Position numbers and translations under genes: made by a program. Below the pieces are notes generated by a model. The model saw nothing but the letters and a program-made list of their open reading frames with translations, had not been told where the DNA came from and searched no databases. A DNA stretch of 64,000 bases from Streptomyces melanogenes (GTDB taxonomy: Bacteria > Actinomycetota > Actinomycetes > Streptomycetales > Streptomycetaceae), in NCBI RefSeq assembly GCF_014649795.1, contig NZ_BMTS01000003.1, positions 434,001-498,000 on the forward strand, read 5' to 3'. Below, piece by piece: positions 36,018-44,236 of the stretch. Positions within the stretch are counted from its first letter, which is position 1. Every line of letters begins with the position of its first letter.

Positions 36018-36165
36018 CGGTGTTCGTCTGCGGACCGTATGTGGCTGGTCGCGCAGTTCCCCGCGCCCCTAAGTACCTAGGGGCGCGGGGAACTGCGCGA
36101 CCAGTTGGGGACGGCCCGCAGACGAAATCTCACCCCCCGGAGGGTTAAGGGAACGGGCGGGGTGG
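36018..36165. repeat. Nested palindromic repeat copy
   Basis: Inner arms 36045-36070 and 36079-36104 are perfect over 26 nt, with an 8-nt loop. Middle arms are 36024-36039 (TTCGTCTGCGGACCGT) and 36111-36126, one mismatch. A right-hand outer block with GGGCGGGGTGGGGG follows. It fills the convergent gap between lgt and the lyase gene. Confidence 0.88.
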
Positions 36166-36963
36166 GGGATCCCTCTGGGCCAAGGACAGCGTGCGGCGCG
36201 CAGCCTCCACCACCGCCGCATCCACGAAGCGACCATCCGCCAGCGCCAGCGCCCCCGTGTCGGTGGGCGACGCCGTGAGGATCTCCTCCGCTGCCGCCAC
36301 CTCCGACGCCGACGGCAGATAGGCCCGCTCGATCACCGGCAACTGCGCCGGATGGATCGCCGCGCGCCCCAGGAAGCCCAGCCCGCGCCCGTGCGCGCAG
36401 GACGCGGCGAGCCCCGCCAGATCGCTGATGTGCCGGTACACCGACTGCGCGGGCGGGGCCAGCCCCGCCGCCCGCGCGGCCACCACCACCCGGCTGCGCG
36501 GCCAGTCCAGGCCCGACTCGTTGCGTACGCCCAGATCCGCGCAGAGGTCCGCCTCGCCGAGCGCGATGCTCCGCACCGACGGGTGGGCACAGGCGATCGT
36601 GTACGCGTGCTCCACGCCGAGCGCGCTCTCCAGGAGCGGGTGCAGCGGGACGCCGGGCGCCAGGCCCGCGATGCGCTGGACCTGCTGGGGGTGGGTGATC
36701 TTGGGCAGCCGCAGGCCCGCCAGACCGGGGAGCCCGGCCAAGGCCCGTACGTCCTCCTCCGTGGCCACCCGGACGTGCACCGGCGTGGACAGTGGCTCGG
36801 CGAGCAGCTCCGCCGTCGCCGCCCGCGCGTACTCCTTGCGGTCCGGCGCCACCGCGTCCTCCAGGTCCACGATCACCACGTCCGCGCCCGCCGACAGCGC
36901 CTTCTCGACCACCTGCGGCCGGTCGCCGGGGGCGTAGAGCCAGGTCAGCGGGATCGTCGTCAC
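36145..36963 (-). CDS. CitE-like CoA-ester lyase (HpcH/HpaI family)
   Basis: 272 aa from the GTG at 36963. Barrel with WLYAPGDRPQVVEKAL, VVIVDLEDAVAPDRK, RLPKITHPQQV, HPLLESALGVEHA (metal Glu), IALGEADLCADLGV (metal Asp) and GFLGRAAIHPAQLPVI. Such enzymes cleave or hydrolyse CoA esters of beta-hydroxy acids such as malyl-CoA or citramalyl-CoA; the substrate here is unknown. Its GTG start overlaps the stop of the CaiB gene, so CoA transfer and cleavage could be consecutive steps. Its stop lies in the edge of the repeat. Confidence 0.88.
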   Translation of the reverse strand: MTTIPLTWLYAPGDRPQVVEKALSAGADVVIVDLEDAVAPDRKEYARAATAELLAEPLSTPVHVRVATEEDVRALAGLPGLAGLRLPKITHPQQVQRIAGLAPGVPLHPLLESALGVEHAYTIACAHPSVRSIALGEADLCADLGVRNESGLDWPRSRVVVAARAAGLAPPAQSVYRHISDLAGLAASCAHGRGLGFLGRAAIHPAQLPVIERAYLPSASEVAAAEEILTASPTDTGALALADGRFVDAAVVEAARRTLSLAQRDPPPRPFP

Positions 36964-38147
36964 AGCGCGCCCGCCCCGCGCAGCGTGGTGATCTCCTGGG
37001 CGGACAGGCCCAGTTCGGTCAGGACCTCGTCCGTGTCCGCGCCGTGCGGGCGGCCCGCCCAGCGGATCGCGCCCGGGGTCTCGGAGAGCCGGAAGAGGAC
37101 GTTCTGCATCCTGACCGGCCCCAGCTCCGGGTCGTCGACCGTGGTGAGCGTGTCCAGCGCGCGGTACTGGGGGTCCGTCATCACCTCGCGGATGTCGTAG
37201 ATCGGCGCGATCGCCGCCTCCGCCTTCTCGAACGCCGTCATCGCCTCCTCCCGGGTGCGGCGGGCGATCCAGCCGCCCACCGCCTCGTCCAGCTCGTCCG
37301 CGTGGTCGGCCCGCCCCGAGCCGGTAGCGAACCACGGCTCGCCGATCAGGTCCGGGCGCCCCACCAGCCGCATCACCCGCTCGGCCACCGACTGGGCCGA
37401 GGTGGAGACGGCGAGCCAACTGCCGTCCGCCGTACGGTAGGTGTTGCGCGGGGCGTTGTTGCGGGAGCGGTTGCCGGTGCGCGGCTGGACGTAACCGAGC
37501 TGGTCGTACCAGATGGGCTGGGGGCCGAGGACCGTCAGGATCGGCTCGATGATCGCCATGTCGATCACCTGCCCGCGCCCGGTGGCGGCGCGCGCGGTGA
37601 GTGCGGTCAGGACGGCGTACGCGGTGGCCAGCGCGGCGATCGAGTCCGCGAGGCCGAACGGCGGCAGCGTCGGCGGGCCGTCCGGCTCGCCGGTGACGGC
37701 CGCGAAGCCGCTCATCGCCTCGGCGAGCGTGCCGAAGCCGGGGCGGTGGGCGTACGGGCCGTACTGGCCGAAGCCGGTGACCCGGGCCAGTACCAACCGG
37801 TCGTTGGCGGCGGCCAGTTCGGGCCAGCCCAGGCCCCAGCGCTCCAGGGTGCCCGGGCGGAAGTTCTCGATGATCACATCGGTGGAGGCGGCGAGCCGGA
37901 GGAGGGTCTCGCGGCCGCCCGGCGTGGACAGATCGAGGGTGATCGTCCGTTTGTTGCGGCCGAGCAGCTTCCACCACAGCCCGACGCCGTCCTTGGCGGG
38001 GCCGTGGCCGCGCGAGGGGTCGGGGCGGCGGGGGTGCTCGACCTTGATGACCTCGGCGCCGAAGTCGCCGAGCATCGTCGCGGCGAGCGGCCCGGCGAAG
38101 AGGGTGGCGAGGTCCAGAACCCGCAGTTGTTGCAGGGGAGTCGTCAC
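36960..38147 (-). CDS. CaiB/BaiF family III CoA-transferase
   Basis: 395 aa. LRVLDLATLFAGPLAATMLG and VIKVEHPRRPDPSRGHGP at the N-terminus, LLGRNKRTITLDLSTPGG, VIIENFRPGTLERWG, and ARVTGFGQYGPYAHRPGFG are the class signature. At the position of the catalytic Asp of formyl-CoA transferase (GYD) the sequence reads PGFGTLAEAMSGF; from memory this variant occurs in one large sub-family, so inactivity should not be assumed. It moves CoA between carboxylic acids. Coupled by GTGA to both neighbours. Confidence 0.88.
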   Translation of the reverse strand: MTTPLQQLRVLDLATLFAGPLAATMLGDFGAEVIKVEHPRRPDPSRGHGPAKDGVGLWWKLLGRNKRTITLDLSTPGGRETLLRLAASTDVIIENFRPGTLERWGLGWPELAAANDRLVLARVTGFGQYGPYAHRPGFGTLAEAMSGFAAVTGEPDGPPTLPPFGLADSIAALATAYAVLTALTARAATGRGQVIDMAIIEPILTVLGPQPIWYDQLGYVQPRTGNRSRNNAPRNTYRTADGSWLAVSTSAQSVAERVMRLVGRPDLIGEPWFATGSGRADHADELDEAVGGWIARRTREEAMTAFEKAEAAIAPIYDIREVMTDPQYRALDTLTTVDDPELGPVRMQNVLFRLSETPGAIRWAGRPHGADTDEVLTELGLSAQEITTLRGAGAL

Positions 38148-39049
38148 CGGGCGGTTCCCTCGGCCGCCGCCGCGTCGATCTCCTTGCGGTACGGCATGGC
38201 GGCCACCGCGCCGGGCCGCTGGACCGAGAGCGCGGCGGCGTCCGACGCCCAGGCGAGCGCCTGCGGCATCGCCCGGCCCTCGCCCAGGGCGACGGCGAGT
38301 GCGCCGACGAACGTGTCGCCCGCGCCCGTCGTGTCGACCGCGGTCACCTCCGGGGCCGGGACCGCGACCGGGTCCTGGCCGCGCGCCGCGTACAGGCTGC
38401 CCCGGGCGCCGAGCGTGACCACCACCTCGGGGACGAGTTCGAGCAGCGCGCGGGAGGCCGCCTTGGGGTCGTCGATGCCGGTGAGCGCGGCGGCCTCGTG
38501 CTCGTTGGCCACCAACAGGTCGGTGGCGGCGAGGAGTTCGGGCGGCAGGGGCTGGACGGGGGAGGGGGTGAGGACCGTGCGCACCCCGTGGCGCCGGGCC
38601 GCCTTGGCACCCTCGACGACCGTGTCCATCGGCAGCTCCAGCTGGAGCAGCAGCGACTCGGCGCCCGCGATCAGCGCCTCGTCGCCGGGGCCGAGGTGGG
38701 TGACGGAGGCGTTGGCGCCGGGGATGACGACGATCGCGTTGCCGCCGTCCGCGTCGACCACGATGTGGGCCGTGCCGGACGGCCCCTCGGTGGTGCGCAC
38801 GAGGTCGGTGTCGACACCGGAGCCGTCGAGCGCGGCCCGCAGCCGTACGCCGAACTCGTCCGTGCCGACCGCCCCGATGAGCGCGACGTCGGCGCCCGCG
38901 CGGGCCGCGGCGACGGCCTGGTTGGCGCCCTTGCCGCCCGGGATCGTACGGAAGTCGTGGCCGGTGACGGTCTCGCCGCGGCGCGGGGCGCTCTTCACGT
39001 AGGCGACCAGGTCCATGTTGGTGCTGCCGAGCACCGCGATGCGCGTCAT
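38144..39049 (-). CDS. rbsK: Ribokinase
   Basis: 301 aa PfkB-family kinase. Two signature regions: GGKGANQAVAAARAGADVAL and the C-terminal DTTGAGDTFVGALAVAL with the catalytic Asp; the ribose end GSTNMDLVAYV fits RbsK. Phosphorylates D-ribose to ribose-5-phosphate. It is wedged between ADP-ribosylglycohydrolase genes and the CoA genes with ATGA/GTGA overlaps, and no ribose transporter is near, so its ribose may come from hydrolysis inside the cell (inference). Confidence 0.88.
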   Translation of the reverse strand: MTRIAVLGSTNMDLVAYVKSAPRRGETVTGHDFRTIPGGKGANQAVAAARAGADVALIGAVGTDEFGVRLRAALDGSGVDTDLVRTTEGPSGTAHIVVDADGGNAIVVIPGANASVTHLGPGDEALIAGAESLLLQLELPMDTVVEGAKAARRHGVRTVLTPSPVQPLPPELLAATDLLVANEHEAAALTGIDDPKAASRALLELVPEVVVTLGARGSLYAARGQDPVAVPAPEVTAVDTTGAGDTFVGALAVALGEGRAMPQALAWASDAAALSVQRPGAVAAMPYRKEIDAAAAEGTAR

Positions 39050-40578
39050 GCGCTCCGTACCTCCTGGGGGATGTGGGGTGGGGTGAGCTGTGCGGTCAGT
39101 TCCGCGAGGGTGTCGAAGCCGGTGCCGTCGAAGTCGGCGACGGTGGTGGCGAGGCGGTTCTTGAGCGGTGCGGTCCAGCGGGCGGGCAGGGCGTCCGGGT
39201 GCCCGGCGAGGAGCCCCGCGAGGGATCCGGCGGTGGCCCCGTTGGAGTCGGTGTCCCAGCCGCCGGACACCGCGCGGCAGATGGAGCCGGAGAAGTCGCC
39301 GTCGGCGTGGGTGAGGGCGGCGGCGAGCAGGGCGGCGTTGGGGACGGCGTGCACCCAGTGGTAGCCGCCCAGGGTGGTGTGGAGGTGGTCGACGACGGTG
39401 TCGAAGTCGCCTTCCTGGTGGGCGAGGTGGATGCCGAGGCGTACGGCCTCCGCGAGGCGGGAGCGCGGGGGGATCACCGCGAGGCCGCCCTTCAGGCAGT
39501 CGTGTACGTCGTACGCGCCGGTGGCGGCCAGGGAGATCGCCGCGGCCGTGAACATCGCGCCGTACACGCCGTTGGCGGTGTGGGTGAGGACGGCGTCGCG
39601 GTGCGCCTGCTCGGCGGCGGCCGCGGGGTCGCCCGGGTTGGTCCAGCCGTGGACGTCGGCGCGGATGGTGGCGCCGATCCACTCGCGGAACGGGTTGCGG
39701 TGGGTGGCGGTGTGCGGCGGCTCGATCCCGTCGAGGAGGTTGCGGTACGCGACGCGCTCGGCGGTGAACGTACGGCCCGCCGGGAGCTCGTCCAGCCACA
39801 GCTGGGCGACCTGGGTGGTGGTGAAGGCGCGGCCGTGGCGCTGGAGGAGGAGCAGGCCGAGGAGGGGGTAGTTGAGGTCGTCGTCCTCCGGCATGCCGTC
39901 GATGTTCTCGGCGAGGGAGGTGGGGGCGGAGCGGCGGTTCCAGGGGTACGTGGTGGCCAGGTCGGTGGGGAGGCCGGTTGCGGTGAACCAGGTGTGGAGG
40001 GGCCAGTTGGAGGTGGCCCGAGCGATGGCTCGGATGCCGTGGAGGGGCAGCTTCTCGACGGGCTTGCCGAGCAGGCAGCCGGCGGCGCGGCCTAGCCAGG
40101 CGGCGTGGAGGGCGTGGAGTTCCCCCACCCCGCCCCTTCCCGAAACCCTCCGGGGGTGGGGGTGGGGAAGGTGGTTCTCCGGGGGCTCCGCCCCCGGGCC
40201 CCCAGGCGGGGGCTGCGCCCCCTGCACCCCGCTTGCGGGGCTGCGCCCCTGCACCCCCTCGGGGCTCCGCCCCGGACCCCGGACTGGGCTGTGACTGGTT
40301 GCCGTCGCCGACTTGATCGCCTCGTAGTCCGTCGGTTCAGCCTCACTCAACCGGCAGGGGAGAGTGCCCAGTTCGTCCAGCAGGGCCAGCGCCAGCCTGC
40401 GTAGTTCGGGGGGTGCGGGTGTGGGGGACGCGCCCGCCGATCGAGGGGCCTTCCCGCCGCCCGCTGCCCTCCAGCGTGCCGCGATTCGCCCCGCCTCCCT
40501 GCCGTCCTCCCTCGCCTGGCGGAGTTCGTGGGGGAGTAGGTCCTCCGGCTGGACCCAGGTCAGGCGTAGGGGGGTCAT
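39046..40578 (-). CDS. ADP-ribosylglycohydrolase paralog A, with repeat insert
   Basis: 510 aa. N-terminal segment (residues 1-95, MTPLRLTWVQPEDLLPHELR), then residues about 96-152 encoded by a genomic repeat (SPEGVQGRSPASGVQGAQPP), then the hydrolase domain from LHAAWLGRAAGCLLGKPVEK. Metal motifs: MPEDDDLNYPLLGL (DD kept, Thr replaced) and GGWDTDSNGATAG (both Asp). Predicted cytosolic enzyme that cleaves a glycosidic bond of ADP-ribose or a related riboside. Starts by ATGA overlap with paralog B and overlaps rbsK. The insert is in frame and lies in a linker, so activity is plausible. Confidence 0.85.
   Translation of the reverse strand: MTPLRLTWVQPEDLLPHELRQAREDGREAGRIAARWRAAGGGKAPRSAGASPTPAPPELRRLALALLDELGTLPCRLSEAEPTDYEAIKSATATSHSPVRGPGRSPEGVQGRSPASGVQGAQPPPGGPGAEPPENHLPHPHPRRVSGRGGVGELHALHAAWLGRAAGCLLGKPVEKLPLHGIRAIARATSNWPLHTWFTATGLPTDLATTYPWNRRSAPTSLAENIDGMPEDDDLNYPLLGLLLLQRHGRAFTTTQVAQLWLDELPAGRTFTAERVAYRNLLDGIEPPHTATHRNPFREWIGATIRADVHGWTNPGDPAAAAEQAHRDAVLTHTANGVYGAMFTAAAISLAATGAYDVHDCLKGGLAVIPPRSRLAEAVRLGIHLAHQEGDFDTVVDHLHTTLGGYHWVHAVPNAALLAAALTHADGDFSGSICRAVSGGWDTDSNGATAGSLAGLLAGHPDALPARWTAPLKNRLATTVADFDGTGFDTLAELTAQLTPPHIPQEVRSA
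40121..40290 (-). repeat. Type-1 repeat inserted in a coding sequence
   Basis: On the + strand: CCCCGCCCCTTCCCGAAAC, then GGGGGCTCCGCCCCCGG, GGGGGCTGCGCCCCC and GGGGCTCCGCCCC. It has the same order as the intergenic copies at 807-952 and 15517-15632, in the same orientation on the chromosome. Its length keeps the host gene in frame and adds about 56 codons. Confidence 0.88.
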
Positions 40579-41738
40579 CGGGTCAGCGCCTCGAAGGCCT
40601 TGTGGTGGGCGGACTGGCGGGTGCGGTCCTTCTCGTACACCTCGCGGGTCACCTCCGTCAGGGCCCGTGCGGGGGCGTGCAGGTCCAGGCGGCTGGCCTC
40701 GGCGATCTGTTTGGGCCAGGCGGCGGGGATGGGGGCCTCGCCCCGGAGCGCGCCCGCCAGGGCGCCCGCCATGGTGGCGATGGAGTCGCAGTCCCGGCCG
40801 TAGTTCACCGCGCCGAGGACCGCCGTGCGGTAGTCGCCGTCGGCCACGAGCAGCATGCCCAGGGCGATCGGGAGTTCCTCGATGGCGTGCAGGCGGGACG
40901 GGCGGCGGGCGCCCAGGGACGGGGCGCGGTAGTCCGGGCCGACGGTGTCGAAGGGGGCGATCGCCGCCCGCAGGGGGGCCAGAGCCGACTCGAAGTCCGT
41001 GTGGGCGGAGGCCGTTTCCGCCACTGCCTCGATCGCCGAGCGCGTTCCGTCTTTTGCCAGGGTCAGGCATGTTTCCACGACGCTCGTCGCCGTCGCGTTC
41101 GGTGCGCACGCCGCCGCCACCGCCGCCGCGAACACGCCCGCCGCCTCCCGGCCGTACGAGGACTGGTGCGGGGCCGCCACCTCCAGGGCTTCCGCGTACG
41201 CCGCCGCCGGGTTGGCCGCGTTGACCAGGCCGACCGGGGCCATGTACATCGCCGCGCCGCAGTTGACGATGTTGCCGGTGCCCGCCTCGCGCGGGTCCAC
41301 GTGGCCGTAGTGCAGCCGGGCCACGATCCACTTCTCGGCGAGGAAGATCCGGTGGAGGGGGATCGCCTCGGCTTCGAGCTCCGGGATCCAGCGGGGGTGC
41401 GCGATCAGGTCGGGGACCAGGTGGTCCGCGACCGCGTACGCGTCCAGGTGGTCGCGGACCTGCTCATACACCCGGATCAGCGCGTGCGTCATCAAGGTGT
41501 CGTCGGTGACGTGGCCGTCGCCCTTGTGGTACGGGGCGATCGGCCGCGCCGTACGCCAGTCGTCGCCGTGCCAGGGGCCGACGACGCCGTGGACGCGGCC
41601 GCCGTGCCGCTCCACGATCTGCTCCGGGGTGTAGCCCTCGACCGGGCCGCCGAGGGCGTCCCCGACGGCCGCGCCGACCAGGGCGCCGGTGATGCGGTCC
41701 TCAAGAGTGAGCGTCGTGTACGACGTCGTGAGCGTCAT
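40575..41738 (-). CDS. ADP-ribosylglycohydrolase paralog B
   Basis: 387 aa from the ATG at 41738 (a GTG 15 nt upstream is possible). Domain start LEDRITGALVGAAVGDALGG. Metal motifs intact: HVTDDTLMTHALIRVY (T-D-D-T) and VNYGRDCDSIATMAGALAG (D-x-D-S). Additional helices around residues 90-150 (DLIAHPRWIPELEAEAIPL) distinguish it from DraG. A canonical-looking member; substrate may be an ADP-ribosylated protein, O-acetyl-ADP-ribose, or another riboside. ATGA overlap with paralog A. Confidence 0.9.
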   Translation of the reverse strand: MTLTTSYTTLTLEDRITGALVGAAVGDALGGPVEGYTPEQIVERHGGRVHGVVGPWHGDDWRTARPIAPYHKGDGHVTDDTLMTHALIRVYEQVRDHLDAYAVADHLVPDLIAHPRWIPELEAEAIPLHRIFLAEKWIVARLHYGHVDPREAGTGNIVNCGAAMYMAPVGLVNAANPAAAYAEALEVAAPHQSSYGREAAGVFAAAVAAACAPNATATSVVETCLTLAKDGTRSAIEAVAETASAHTDFESALAPLRAAIAPFDTVGPDYRAPSLGARRPSRLHAIEELPIALGMLLVADGDYRTAVLGAVNYGRDCDSIATMAGALAGALRGEAPIPAAWPKQIAEASRLDLHAPARALTEVTREVYEKDRTRQSAHHKAFEALTR

Positions 41739-41809
41739 GCCGGAATTGTCCACCCTGGACGGTCAGTTCGCGGGGGTTCGCGGCACTTTCGCCTAAAGCG
41801 GTGAAAAGC

Positions 41810-42997
41810 TCAGCCGCCCGGCGGGTGGCGCAGCGTGTCGGCGAGGAGCCCGGCGAGCTCCACGAGGTCGGTGCCGGCCAGGCGCGGGAGGGCGCAGCCG
41901 GACAGGGTGCGGCAGGCGTCCAGCCAGGGGGCGGGGATCGCCGCGCCGCCGCCGAGCGCGCCGGTGAGCGCCCCGGCGAGGGCGGGCGCCGAGTCCGCGA
42001 CCCGGGACAGACAGGCCGCGGCCGGGACCGCCTCGGCGACCGTGCCGCGCGAGGCGGTGGCCAGGGCGAGGGCGACGGGGACGGTCTCGGCGGCGGCGAT
42101 CCCGTAGCTGTAGACGTGGTCCACGATCTGGTGCTCCAGGAGCGGGACCAGGGCGAACGCGCCCGCCGTGTCGTCGGCGAAGTCGTGCGCGAGCTTGACG
42201 GCGTGCTGGGCGTTGCGGCCGATCTCGGTGTCGGGCGGGAGTTCGTCGAGGGCGGCCGCCACGGCGTCCTGGACCCCGGCCCCGCCGAGCGCGGCCGCGA
42301 CCGCCGCGGCGACGGCCCGGGCGCCGTGCACGCCGTCGCCGTCCTGGGTGTACCGGGCGTCGAACTCGGCCAGTTCGGCGGCTTCCCGGGGCGCGCCGGG
42401 GTGGACGACGGCGAGGACGGCGGCGCGTACGCAGGCGGCGTCGTCGAAGTAGTGCGGGTTGTCGTGGCCGGTGGCGGGCGGGCGCAGGCCGGTGGCGAGG
42501 TTGCCGAGGCCCGCGCGTACGGAGATGCGGGCGCGCAGGGGGAGCACCGCGGACTCGACCTCGGGGGCGCGTTCGGCCGCCGCGGCGACCTCGGCGGCGA
42601 GGAGGTTCCAGGCGCGGTCGACGGCGGCGCGGACGCGTCGGGCCGGGGTGAGGTGGGCGAGCAGCGGCTCGGCGGCGGTGAGCACGGTCTCGGCGGCGAA
42701 CGCGGCCCACTCGGCGTCGTCCGACGGGCCCAGGCGCAGCGGTTCGGGGGGCTGGTTGAGGGCGATGGGGACGGGCAGGGTGGTGGTGGCGTTCTGCTCG
42801 GCGAAGGTGTCGAGCTCGCGGGTGAGCCGCCGGGTCCACTCGGGCATCCGCGCGGCCCGGTGCCGCGCGGCGGGCCACCCGGCGGCGTCCCCGGCGGCCA
42901 GGCCGAGCAGGAGGCCCTGGATGCGGTCGGCCTGGGACAGCCCCGGCACCCCGCTGCGGAGCTCCGTACGCCCCTCGGAAACCTCGTCACCCATCAC
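41810..42997 (-). CDS. ADP-ribosylglycohydrolase paralog C (degenerate site)
   Basis: 395 aa from the GTG at 42997, overlapping the stop of paralog D (GTGA). The fold is clear from ADRIQGLLLGLAAGDAAGWP and ALAGALTGALGGGAAIPAPW. The first metal motif reads PSDDAEWAAFAAE (T-D-D-T changed to S-D-D-A), the second LSRVADSAPALAG where paralog D has MGRDADTTAAVAG: the first Asp is Val. It may be a non-catalytic partner of a neighbour. No frameshift or stop; codon use is normal, so it is maintained rather than decaying. Confidence 0.82.
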   Translation of the reverse strand: MMGDEVSEGRTELRSGVPGLSQADRIQGLLLGLAAGDAAGWPAARHRAARMPEWTRRLTRELDTFAEQNATTTLPVPIALNQPPEPLRLGPSDDAEWAAFAAETVLTAAEPLLAHLTPARRVRAAVDRAWNLLAAEVAAAAERAPEVESAVLPLRARISVRAGLGNLATGLRPPATGHDNPHYFDDAACVRAAVLAVVHPGAPREAAELAEFDARYTQDGDGVHGARAVAAAVAAALGGAGVQDAVAAALDELPPDTEIGRNAQHAVKLAHDFADDTAGAFALVPLLEHQIVDHVYSYGIAAAETVPVALALATASRGTVAEAVPAAACLSRVADSAPALAGALTGALGGGAAIPAPWLDACRTLSGCALPRLAGTDLVELAGLLADTLRHPPGG

Positions 42998-43995
42998 GCG
43001 CTCTCCCCTTCCTCAGGATCCGGCGTCAGCAGGTCCGCGATGTCCAGGACGTGGTAGCCGCGCATCTCGGGGAGGCAGCTGCCGCGGACCGGGCCGATCG
43101 CGGAGGACCAGGCGGCGGGGATCGACGCGGCGCCGCCGTACGCGCCGGCCAGGGCGCCCGCCACCGCCGCCGTCGTGTCCGCGTCGCGGCCCATGTTGAC
43201 CGCCGTCAGGACCGACGCCGTGAAGTCGCCCCGGGCCGTGGCGAAGGCGCCGAAGGCCAGGGCGACCGCTTCGGGGGCCAGGTCCGTCCACGGGTAGCCG
43301 CCGATCACCACCGCCGAGCGGACCGCCCGTTCGCCCTGGTCGGCCACCGCCACCGCGCGGCGCAGCGAGCGTGCGGTCCAGGAGTCCATCGGGATCACCG
43401 AGAGGGCCGCCGCGATCACCGAGGTGAGGCTCCCGCCCGTCATCGCCGCCGCTACGCCCGCCGCCACCGCCTGGCCGCCGTAGATGCCCTCGCCCTCGTG
43501 GCTGACGCAGCCGTCGATCGCCACCAGCCGCGCCGCCTCCCTCGGGGCGCCCGCCGCGAACACGCCGAACGGCGCCGCCCTTATGGCCAGCCCGTCGCTC
43601 CAGGCGTGGCGGTGCTGGGCCGAGATCGGCGCGGCCAGGCCCCGGCGGAGGTTCTCCAGGGTTCCGCGCTCGCTGAAGCCCGCGCCCCGGAACGGGCCCT
43701 CGTCGCGGTCCGCGATCCAGTGGTGCCAGGCGTGTTCGACATGGGTGACCGTGAGCGCCGAGCCGTGCCGGGCGAGCAGCAGGCCGGAGAAGATGGCGTA
43801 CTCGGTGTCGTCCGTGCCCGCCGGGTCGTCCGAGACGAAGCCCTCGATCCGGCCCCAGCGGGCCCGGATCTCCGACGGTTTCATGTTCTCGGCGGGGGCG
43901 CCGAGCGCGTCCCCCACCGCGAGGCCGAGCAGCGCGCCCCTGGCCCGCTCGCGGATGGCCTCGGCCGTGCCGGGGCCGCTGGCGATCAACTCCAT
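42994..43995 (-). CDS. ADP-ribosylglycohydrolase paralog D
   Basis: 333 aa from the ATG at 43995. First gene of the seven-gene minus-strand operon. Domain start IRERARGALLGLAVGDALGA; first metal motif PAGTDDTEYAIFSGLLL, second AVNMGRDADTTAAVAGALAG, both intact. Closest in layout to DraG-type enzymes, which remove ADP-ribose from Arg of dinitrogenase reductase; no nitrogenase is expected here, so the target is something else. The longer open frame upstream lacks a good start. Confidence 0.9.
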   Translation of the reverse strand: MELIASGPGTAEAIRERARGALLGLAVGDALGAPAENMKPSEIRARWGRIEGFVSDDPAGTDDTEYAIFSGLLLARHGSALTVTHVEHAWHHWIADRDEGPFRGAGFSERGTLENLRRGLAAPISAQHRHAWSDGLAIRAAPFGVFAAGAPREAARLVAIDGCVSHEGEGIYGGQAVAAGVAAAMTGGSLTSVIAAALSVIPMDSWTARSLRRAVAVADQGERAVRSAVVIGGYPWTDLAPEAVALAFGAFATARGDFTASVLTAVNMGRDADTTAAVAGALAGAYGGAASIPAAWSSAIGPVRGSCLPEMRGYHVLDIADLLTPDPEEGESA

Positions 43996-44236
43996 GGGAG
44001 GCCTTTCGACGTCGCCGGATCCTTCGCTTGATCTCTGCCACGCCGAACGAGCCGGGAGTCCATCTGTCACCCTCCCGCCACATGTGTGCAAGACCGGCCA
44101 CGAATGAGCACAACACCCCTCTGACCTGGGTAAGTACGGCCTGCCTTGCTAGCGCGGGGCTTACATCGAGCGTAATTTCGACGGAGAAGAGGGGGGCGGG
44201 ACGCAAGCGCCCGCTGCTGAACGCAAGGGGAGAGCT
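43996..44236. other. Divergent promoter region, ADP-ribosylglycohydrolase operon / VIT1
   Basis: A 241-nt gap between two divergent starts, less GC-rich in its middle (44080-44165). It must hold both promoters. I see no convincing operator; a stretch at 44129-44152 loosely resembles an iron box but matches too few positions. Confidence 0.35.

Follow-up and report, generated by a model that had tools for sequence, protein, structure and literature searches.

What do four ADP-ribosylglycohydrolase (RGH, PF03747) genes do in one block with genes for a sugar kinase, a CoA-transferase and a C-C lyase? The question is raised by a 64,000-nucleotide stretch of the Streptomyces melanogenes genome (contig NZ_BMTS01000003.1, positions 434,001 to 498,000), here called the window. 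An earlier note on this DNA had described a seven-gene operon and suggested a pathway, in which a riboside is split, the ribose phosphorylated and the remaining acid processed in a CoA-dependent step. Coordinates and Pfam searches confirmed the block itself. All seven genes lie on the minus strand, from 43995 to 36145, in the order R4, R3, R2, R1, RBK, CAI, CIT. Five of the six junctions are 4-nt overlaps, with GTGA at R4/R3, RBK/CAI and CAI/CIT and ATGA at R2/R1 and R1/RBK; the remaining junction, R3/R2, is a 71-nt gap.

R4, 42994..43995, minus strand: PF03747 protein of 333 aa, first gene of the block; Pfam score 200.2 bits
R3, 41810..42997, minus strand: PF03747 protein of 395 aa; Pfam score 120.9 bits
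R2, 40575..41738, minus strand: PF03747 protein of 387 aa; Pfam score 172.9 bits
R1, 39046..40578, minus strand: PF03747 protein of 510 aa; Pfam score 160.1 bits, over residues 159-466
RBK, 38144..39049, minus strand: ribokinase-family sugar kinase of 301 aa; PfkB 231.3 bits in Pfam
CAI, 36960..38147, minus strand: CoA-transferase family III protein (CaiB/BaiF type) of 395 aa; PF02515 CoA_transf_3 408.8 bits
CIT, 36145..36963, minus strand: CitE/RipC-type C-C lyase of 272 aa; PF03328 HpcH_HpaI 98.7 bits

Our preferred reading, which we hold with modest confidence, is that these genes form the intracellular part of a catabolic cassette, in which an imported glycoside would be split, its pentose phosphorylated, and its acid activated with CoA and cleaved. 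The block is conserved and most likely a catabolic cassette, and we found no description of such a composition: among the matches listed from the open-access literature, no title or abstract joined these activities, which is not proof of absence. The outline of sugar release, phosphorylation and a CoA step on an acid is backed by comparative genomics, with three corrections to the earlier note. It is supported because a sugar-type substrate-binding protein (SBP) gene stands upstream of the RGH genes at all 27 non-Streptomyces RGH loci, and because organic-acid genes stand beside relatives of CAI and CIT at 11 of the 16 inspected loci where these adjoin no RGH gene.

Conservation of the block and linkage to a transporter

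The arrangement is more than chance, since CAI and CIT occur with at least two RGH genes at 50 of 74 named loci and the ratio of non-synonymous to synonymous substitution rates (dN/dS) of all seven genes is 0.16-0.43 against three Streptomyces relatives. The 74 loci come from a pattern-based search of GTDB genomes in which CIT was the query. Genes outside the window were called by codon usage, a procedure that missed low-GC loci and sometimes misplaced starts, and junction lengths there are to be read as approximate; tblastn was used to repeat the key counts. The 50 cassette loci, among which R2, alone of the RGH genes, is found in all 50, R1 in 49 and RBK in 43, represent 15 named genera, to our knowledge all of the Actinomycetota: Streptomyces, Streptantibioticus, Allokutzneria, Actinosynnema, Microtetraspora, Sphaerisporangium, Streptosporangium, Actinoallomurus, Actinomadura, Actinocatenispora, Pseudactinotalea, Georgenia, Arachnia, Actinotalea and Cellulomonas. 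Two of these loci (L052 and L059) look frameshifted yet were counted. The other 24 are not cassette loci: one is cut by a contig end (L010), one holds CAI-CIT only (L069) and 22 carry more distant CIT relatives without RGH genes.

Twenty-three of the 50 cassette loci are from Streptomyces, across which the earlier note had proposed to search for the gene order. These also share their surroundings with the window, where a VIT-family gene (PF01988 in Pfam) is divergent from R4 and the other flanking genes are presumably trpA and lgt on one side and gltB beyond the VIT-family gene. At the 23 loci, lgt was found in 23, trpA in 22, VIT in 20 and gltB in 20; VIT and gltB are both missing at L019, L028 and L026, the last a short contig. 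At the 27 loci outside Streptomyces, no clear match to any of these four flanking genes was seen, so the block is conserved as such.

Co-location was also counted from R1, using only matches above 560 bits. Such strong R1 genes occur in 46 of 296 genomes of the class, in six families. In 44 of them CIT is found no more than about 7.5 kb away, and a 45th (G262) has a weaker CIT by R1, found via tblastn. That genome is only 1.8 Mb in size, and its locus (L143, 47% GC) keeps LacI-ABC-R2-R1-FGE-CAI-CIT; the 14 kb retrieved showed neither a ribokinase nor R3 or R4. Among the 28 Streptomyces genomes in this sample, 21 have a strong R1 and one more, G269, has a damaged block, in which R2 and R1 are short adjoining fragments and R4, R3, RBK, CAI, CIT and the unlinked transporter remain (L159).

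Outside Streptomyces, the SBP gene is accompanied by two permease genes, at 25 and 26 of the 27 loci, and by a LacI-like gene within the fetched flank at 11. The permeases and SBPs that were scanned belong to the Pfam families BPD_transp_1 and SBP_bac_1, respectively, and one SBP has oligosaccharide binders among its solved relatives, which include YesO and an arabino-oligosaccharide binder. We take this ATP-binding cassette (ABC) transporter to be CUT1-like. Neither the window nor the 23 Streptomyces loci have SBP or permease genes beside the operon. The window genome carries an unlinked SBP orthologue elsewhere (G000:C22:98515-99780), with two permease genes, and no catabolic gene was recognised beside it. 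Across Streptomyces, an unlinked SBP orthologue is present in 15 of 22 operon-bearing and 0 of 6 operon-free genomes (threshold E 1e-40, all 15 matches ≤1e-167; Fisher one-sided p 0.0046, uncorrected for relatedness). The earlier note had read the seven genes as one unit. The block is conserved, and the system probably extends beyond the window to the transporter predicted on contig G000:C22.

The surroundings of eight unlinked transporters, that of the window genome (L171) and L172-L178, were compared by homology to L171 proteins scanned with Pfam. An RNase_T-family gene is nearby in all eight and a SAV2148-like HEPN/DUF5919 gene in seven, with no obvious catabolic genes near the transporter at any of these loci.

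Sugar and acid branches

RBK narrowly passes the NCBIfam ribokinase model TIGR02152 (306.2 vs a cut-off of 299.65) and stays below a second one, PRK11142.1 (264.2 vs 341). Its closest solved structures are ribokinases, and it contains GGKGANQA and GAGD segments, which we take to be ribokinase signatures. The other two proteins pass no NCBIfam cut-off: CAI scores best against a succinate--glutarate CoA-transferase (237.5 vs 750) and CIT against RipC_Ccl (135.6 vs 375). The assignment of CAI draws on its closest solved structures as well; its Asp168 sits in a GLADS segment and presumably corresponds to the catalytic Asp of CoA-transferase family III. For CIT the closest solved structures are acyl-CoA lyase beta chains, and R65, E112, E137 and D139 are invariant among 15 aligned sequences. 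Naming the acid by enzyme family was dropped because of these missed cut-offs, and the acid is given as a class only.

Relatives of CAI and CIT elsewhere provide a setting for this class. At 16 inspected loci (L069, L161, L162 and 13 more), CIT relatives have no RGH gene adjoining. In eight of these (L069, L162, L179, L181, L182, L184, L186 and L187), genes for PrpD/MmgE and a putative cyclase are present; five of the eight, L069 among them, also have an IclR-like regulator and three have a major facilitator superfamily (MFS) carrier. The CAI and CIT relatives are not adjacent in L182, L186 and L187. This CAI-CIT-cyclase-PrpD/MmgE set looks like an organic-acid catabolic cluster. Another three (L161, L180 and L191) have DctM, two of them with a GntR-FCD-like regulator. 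The remaining five (L183, L185, L188, L189 and L190) are of other kinds or more distant. Both L183 and L185 have PrpD and a distant CAI, L185 adding genes like those for mesaconyl-CoA hydratase and acyl-CoA dehydrogenase, and L190 has a gene of the MatC/citrate-carrier type. The setting fits hydroxy-dicarboxylate catabolism, with the acid unnamed.

The RGH genes, in turn, also occur without the acid genes. L144 has LacI-ABC-R4-R3-R2-R1 alone, and L151 and L152, both from G134, combine RGH-like, RBK-like, two permease-like and LacI-like genes without CAI or CIT. One of the latter two also has a gene of the alpha-amylase family and a further PF03747 protein, of 651 aa. In L145 the order is changed, with CAI-CIT followed by LacI-ABC-R2-R1-R4. 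The window operon thus joins two modules that are also found apart. A protein with an FGE-sulfatase-like domain is added at 10 of the 27 non-Streptomyces loci (nine of one family, plus L035), and at L146 such a protein is fused to RBK.

From this context we infer each chemical step, ribose as the sugar and an acid as the aglycone. A sugar-type (CUT1-like) ABC transporter, encoded elsewhere in Streptomyces, would import a small glycoside or oligosaccharide, probably a riboside. R1, R2 and R4 would act on its glycosidic bonds as sugar hydrolases that depend on Mg, rather than as ADP-ribosyl hydrolases, with R3 as a putative degenerate partner of R4. The released pentose would be phosphorylated by RBK; that it is most likely ribose is suggested by the family assignment of RBK and by the known ribosyl chemistry of the RGH family. 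CAI and CIT would act on the aglycone, a predicted 2-hydroxy-dicarboxylate of the malate/citramalate/citrate class, which CAI may activate and CIT may then cleave to an acyl-CoA and a 2-oxo acid.

Parts of this scheme resemble known systems. Itaconate/citramalate and malyl-CoA pathways use a CoA-transferase and a CitE-type lyase such as RipC. There, as in the window, a family III CoA-transferase adjoins a CitE/RipC-type lyase, and among NCBIfam models CIT matches RipC best. Unlike these pathways, the window operon has no hydratase gene, its CIT falls well below the RipC cut-off, and its CAI-CIT pair is coupled to RGH genes. Sugar ABC utilisation loci likewise bring together two permeases, an SBP, hydrolases, a sugar kinase and, at some loci, LacI, whereas the hydrolases of the cassette have the RGH fold and a CoA-dependent acid branch is added.

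Four proteins of the RGH family

All four R proteins pass the curated Pfam cut-off for PF03747 (26.2 bits) with 120.9-200.2 bits, and they make up half of the eight PF03747 matches in the window genome, one of the others having internal stops. They do not reach the NCBIfam equivalog cut-offs for DraG (at best 78.1 vs 337.05) or Tri1 (53.2 vs 490), and R3 and R1 give no match at all to these models. Two motifs, the N-terminal (T/E)DD and the C-terminal DxD(T/S), presumably supply the metal ligands. R4 has both intact (TDD and GRDADT), with the motif columns invariant in 14 aligned sequences, as has R2 (TDDT and GRDxDS, 16 sequences). R1 keeps PEDDD and DTDS and has a conserved N-terminal extension and a variable linker (15 sequences).

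R3 differs. In all 17 aligned rows, Val, Ile or Leu replaces the first Asp of the C-terminal GxDxD(T/S) motif, which in a profile alignment corresponds to the first Asp of the ARH3 GGDTDT segment. In three genomes, two of Allokutzneria and one of Actinocatenispora, R4 and R3 are fused, and the fusions have Leu or, in one case, Tyr at this position, so that it is changed in 20 of 20 sequences. A sequencing error or a decayed gene as the source of the change was ruled out by this count and by the dN/dS of R3 (0.16-0.28). The fold is retained in the AlphaFold model (predicted local distance difference test score, pLDDT, 80.8), with MJ1187, Tri1, DraG and ARH3 as the top PDB matches. R3 is probably a non-catalytic partner of R4, because one metal ligand is lost throughout and it is fused to R4 in three genomes. 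The four paralogs of the earlier note are therefore not equivalent as enzymes.

The linker of R1 contains, at 40100-40330 of the window, four in-frame copies of a GGGGCTCCGCCCC-type repeat. A 21-nt piece of it is present five times in the genome, and it may be a mobile or intergenic repeat that has turned coding.

Compared with the DraG/ARH family, the fold and Pfam family are common and R1, R2 and R4 retain both metal motifs, but operon and transporter place these genes in a catabolic context, one metal ligand is missing from R3 and R1 is N-terminally extended. Four consecutive loci of Streptomyces coelicolor, SCO2028-2031, are probably the orthologues of R4-R1, judging from their locus tags and from their position, which we take to be near gltB. 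Since apparently only two locus tags lie between them and lgt, S. coelicolor may lack one of RBK, CAI and CIT. In one study, SCO2028-2031 are listed as uncharacterised and eight DraG/ARH homologues are counted for this species (PMC9411070). Another places SCO2028-2030 among such uncharacterised homologues and takes the many putative ADP-ribosyl hydrolases to suggest a lively ADP-ribosylation metabolism (PMC5087735). Available parts of PMC13432705, PMC9007349 and PMC5036795 contain nothing about this operon. Should four of the eight homologues belong to a catabolic cassette, only half of this inventory would be left, and carbon nutrition would be added to the roles of the superfamily.

Competing readings and flanking sequences

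The R proteins could instead remove ADP-ribose from proteins, nucleic acids or small molecules, as is assumed in work on S. coelicolor, with RBK, CAI and CIT as neighbours that have other roles. We consider this decidedly unlikely. It agrees with the PF03747 membership of all four proteins, with the profile matches of R3 and R1 to ARH3, DraG or related PDB chains, and with the listing of the S. coelicolor loci as DraG/ARH homologues. It does not account for a CIT gene close by in 45 of the 46 strong-R1 genomes or for the sugar-type SBP gene upstream at every non-Streptomyces locus, and no ADP-ribosyltransferase, NUDIX or macrodomain was found among the neighbours scanned with Pfam, which were not all of the neighbours. 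After purification, neither SCO2028 nor SCO2030 was active on U-alpha-ADPr (PMC13036486). Salvage of nucleosides or modified nucleosides, in which the RGH proteins would be nucleosidases and RBK would recover the ribose, appears very improbable. It has a parallel in yegTUV of Escherichia coli, which has the same make-up of transporter, RGH-family protein and sugar kinase; its authors describe it as having no clear function, predict YegT to be a nucleoside:H+ symporter and tie the genes to glycogen and ADP-glucose (PMC10819704). Unlike the window, yegTUV has one RGH gene rather than four, an MFS symporter where the transporter here is a sugar-type ABC system, and no CaiB or CitE among its three genes. 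CaiB and CitE together are not known to take part in base catabolism. On context, both readings rank below the catabolic one.

Two independent catabolic modules on one transcript, RGH and RBK for a sugar conjugate and CAI and CIT for an unrelated, co-occurring acid, would also be catabolic. The transporter-RGH block without CAI-CIT (L144) speaks for such independence, as do the RGH-free CAI/CIT relatives with acid genes (L069, L161, L162, L179-L182, L184, L186, L187 and L191). We nevertheless regard it as unlikely, as the linkage is kept across six families and in reordered loci such as L145, and the core is retained even in the 1.8 Mb genome. Returning to a single cassette for one conjugate, several observations weigh against it. 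The naming of ribose as the sugar draws on family names only, and RBK is absent from 7 of the 50 cassette loci, so that ribose release need not be assumed. We found no natural compound that links ribose with such an acid, and the acid itself is a guess at class level. One strong-R1 genome, G121, has the transporter-RGH block with no CAI-CIT adjoining. The co-occurrence test ignores the relatedness of the Streptomyces genomes, the SBP orthologue is absent from 7 of the 22 operon-bearing ones, these 22 include G269 with R1 and R2 as fragments, and one of the six operon-free ones, G153, has a weaker R1-like gene as well as a separate CAI-CIT-cyclase-PrpD locus. The inactivity on U-alpha-ADPr is not specific to the operon, because two other ARH-like S. 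coelicolor proteins, SCO0086 and one printed as SCO5909, were also inactive in the same study (PMC13036486), and one negative substrate does not exclude others. The N-terminal barrel of one modelled FGE-domain protein resembles GH13 enzymes (E 4.8e-10), but the model is weak (pLDDT 63, query template-modelling score 0.27-0.35 over the rows listed) and a glycoside-hydrolase label is tentative.

Nor was a palindromic operator common to the operon and transporter upstream regions found. The comparison covered exact gapped palindromes with half-sites of 5-6 and gaps of 0-8 in 20 R4 and 8 permease upstream regions, and none reached both 3 of the 20 and 2 of the 8; owing to start calls, the L011 and L052 regions start inside or far from the gene. 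TGTCA-N6-TGACA is present in 14 of the 20 R4 upstream regions only.

More broadly, and as a doubtful though possible extension, a branch of the ADP-ribosylhydrolases might serve in nutrient uptake as glycoside (ribofuranoside) hydrolases. The pathway would be common to Actinobacteria, from soil genera to the 1.8 Mb genome, its target would be an unrecognised common conjugate of a pentose and a 2-hydroxy-dicarboxylic acid, and R4-R3 would be a catalytic/pseudoenzyme pair. Such a pathway would hint at a natural sugar-acid compound that has so far gone unrecognised, and the linked SBP offers a direct handle for fishing out the substrate.

Both ends of the operon have further sequence features. 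At 43996-44236, between the divergently oriented R4 and VIT-family genes, a stretch of sequence is conserved across Streptomyces and seems to resemble an iron-regulator box. A palindromic element lies at the other end, where the operon and lgt converge (36023..36126); its two 52-nt arms are 85% complementary. A 20-nt piece of its core has 500 exact matches in the genome (249 on the plus and 251 on the minus strand; reversed control 0), and many of the listed matches form facing pairs. By its sequence, the element appears to be a terminator-like and very abundant genomic repeat.

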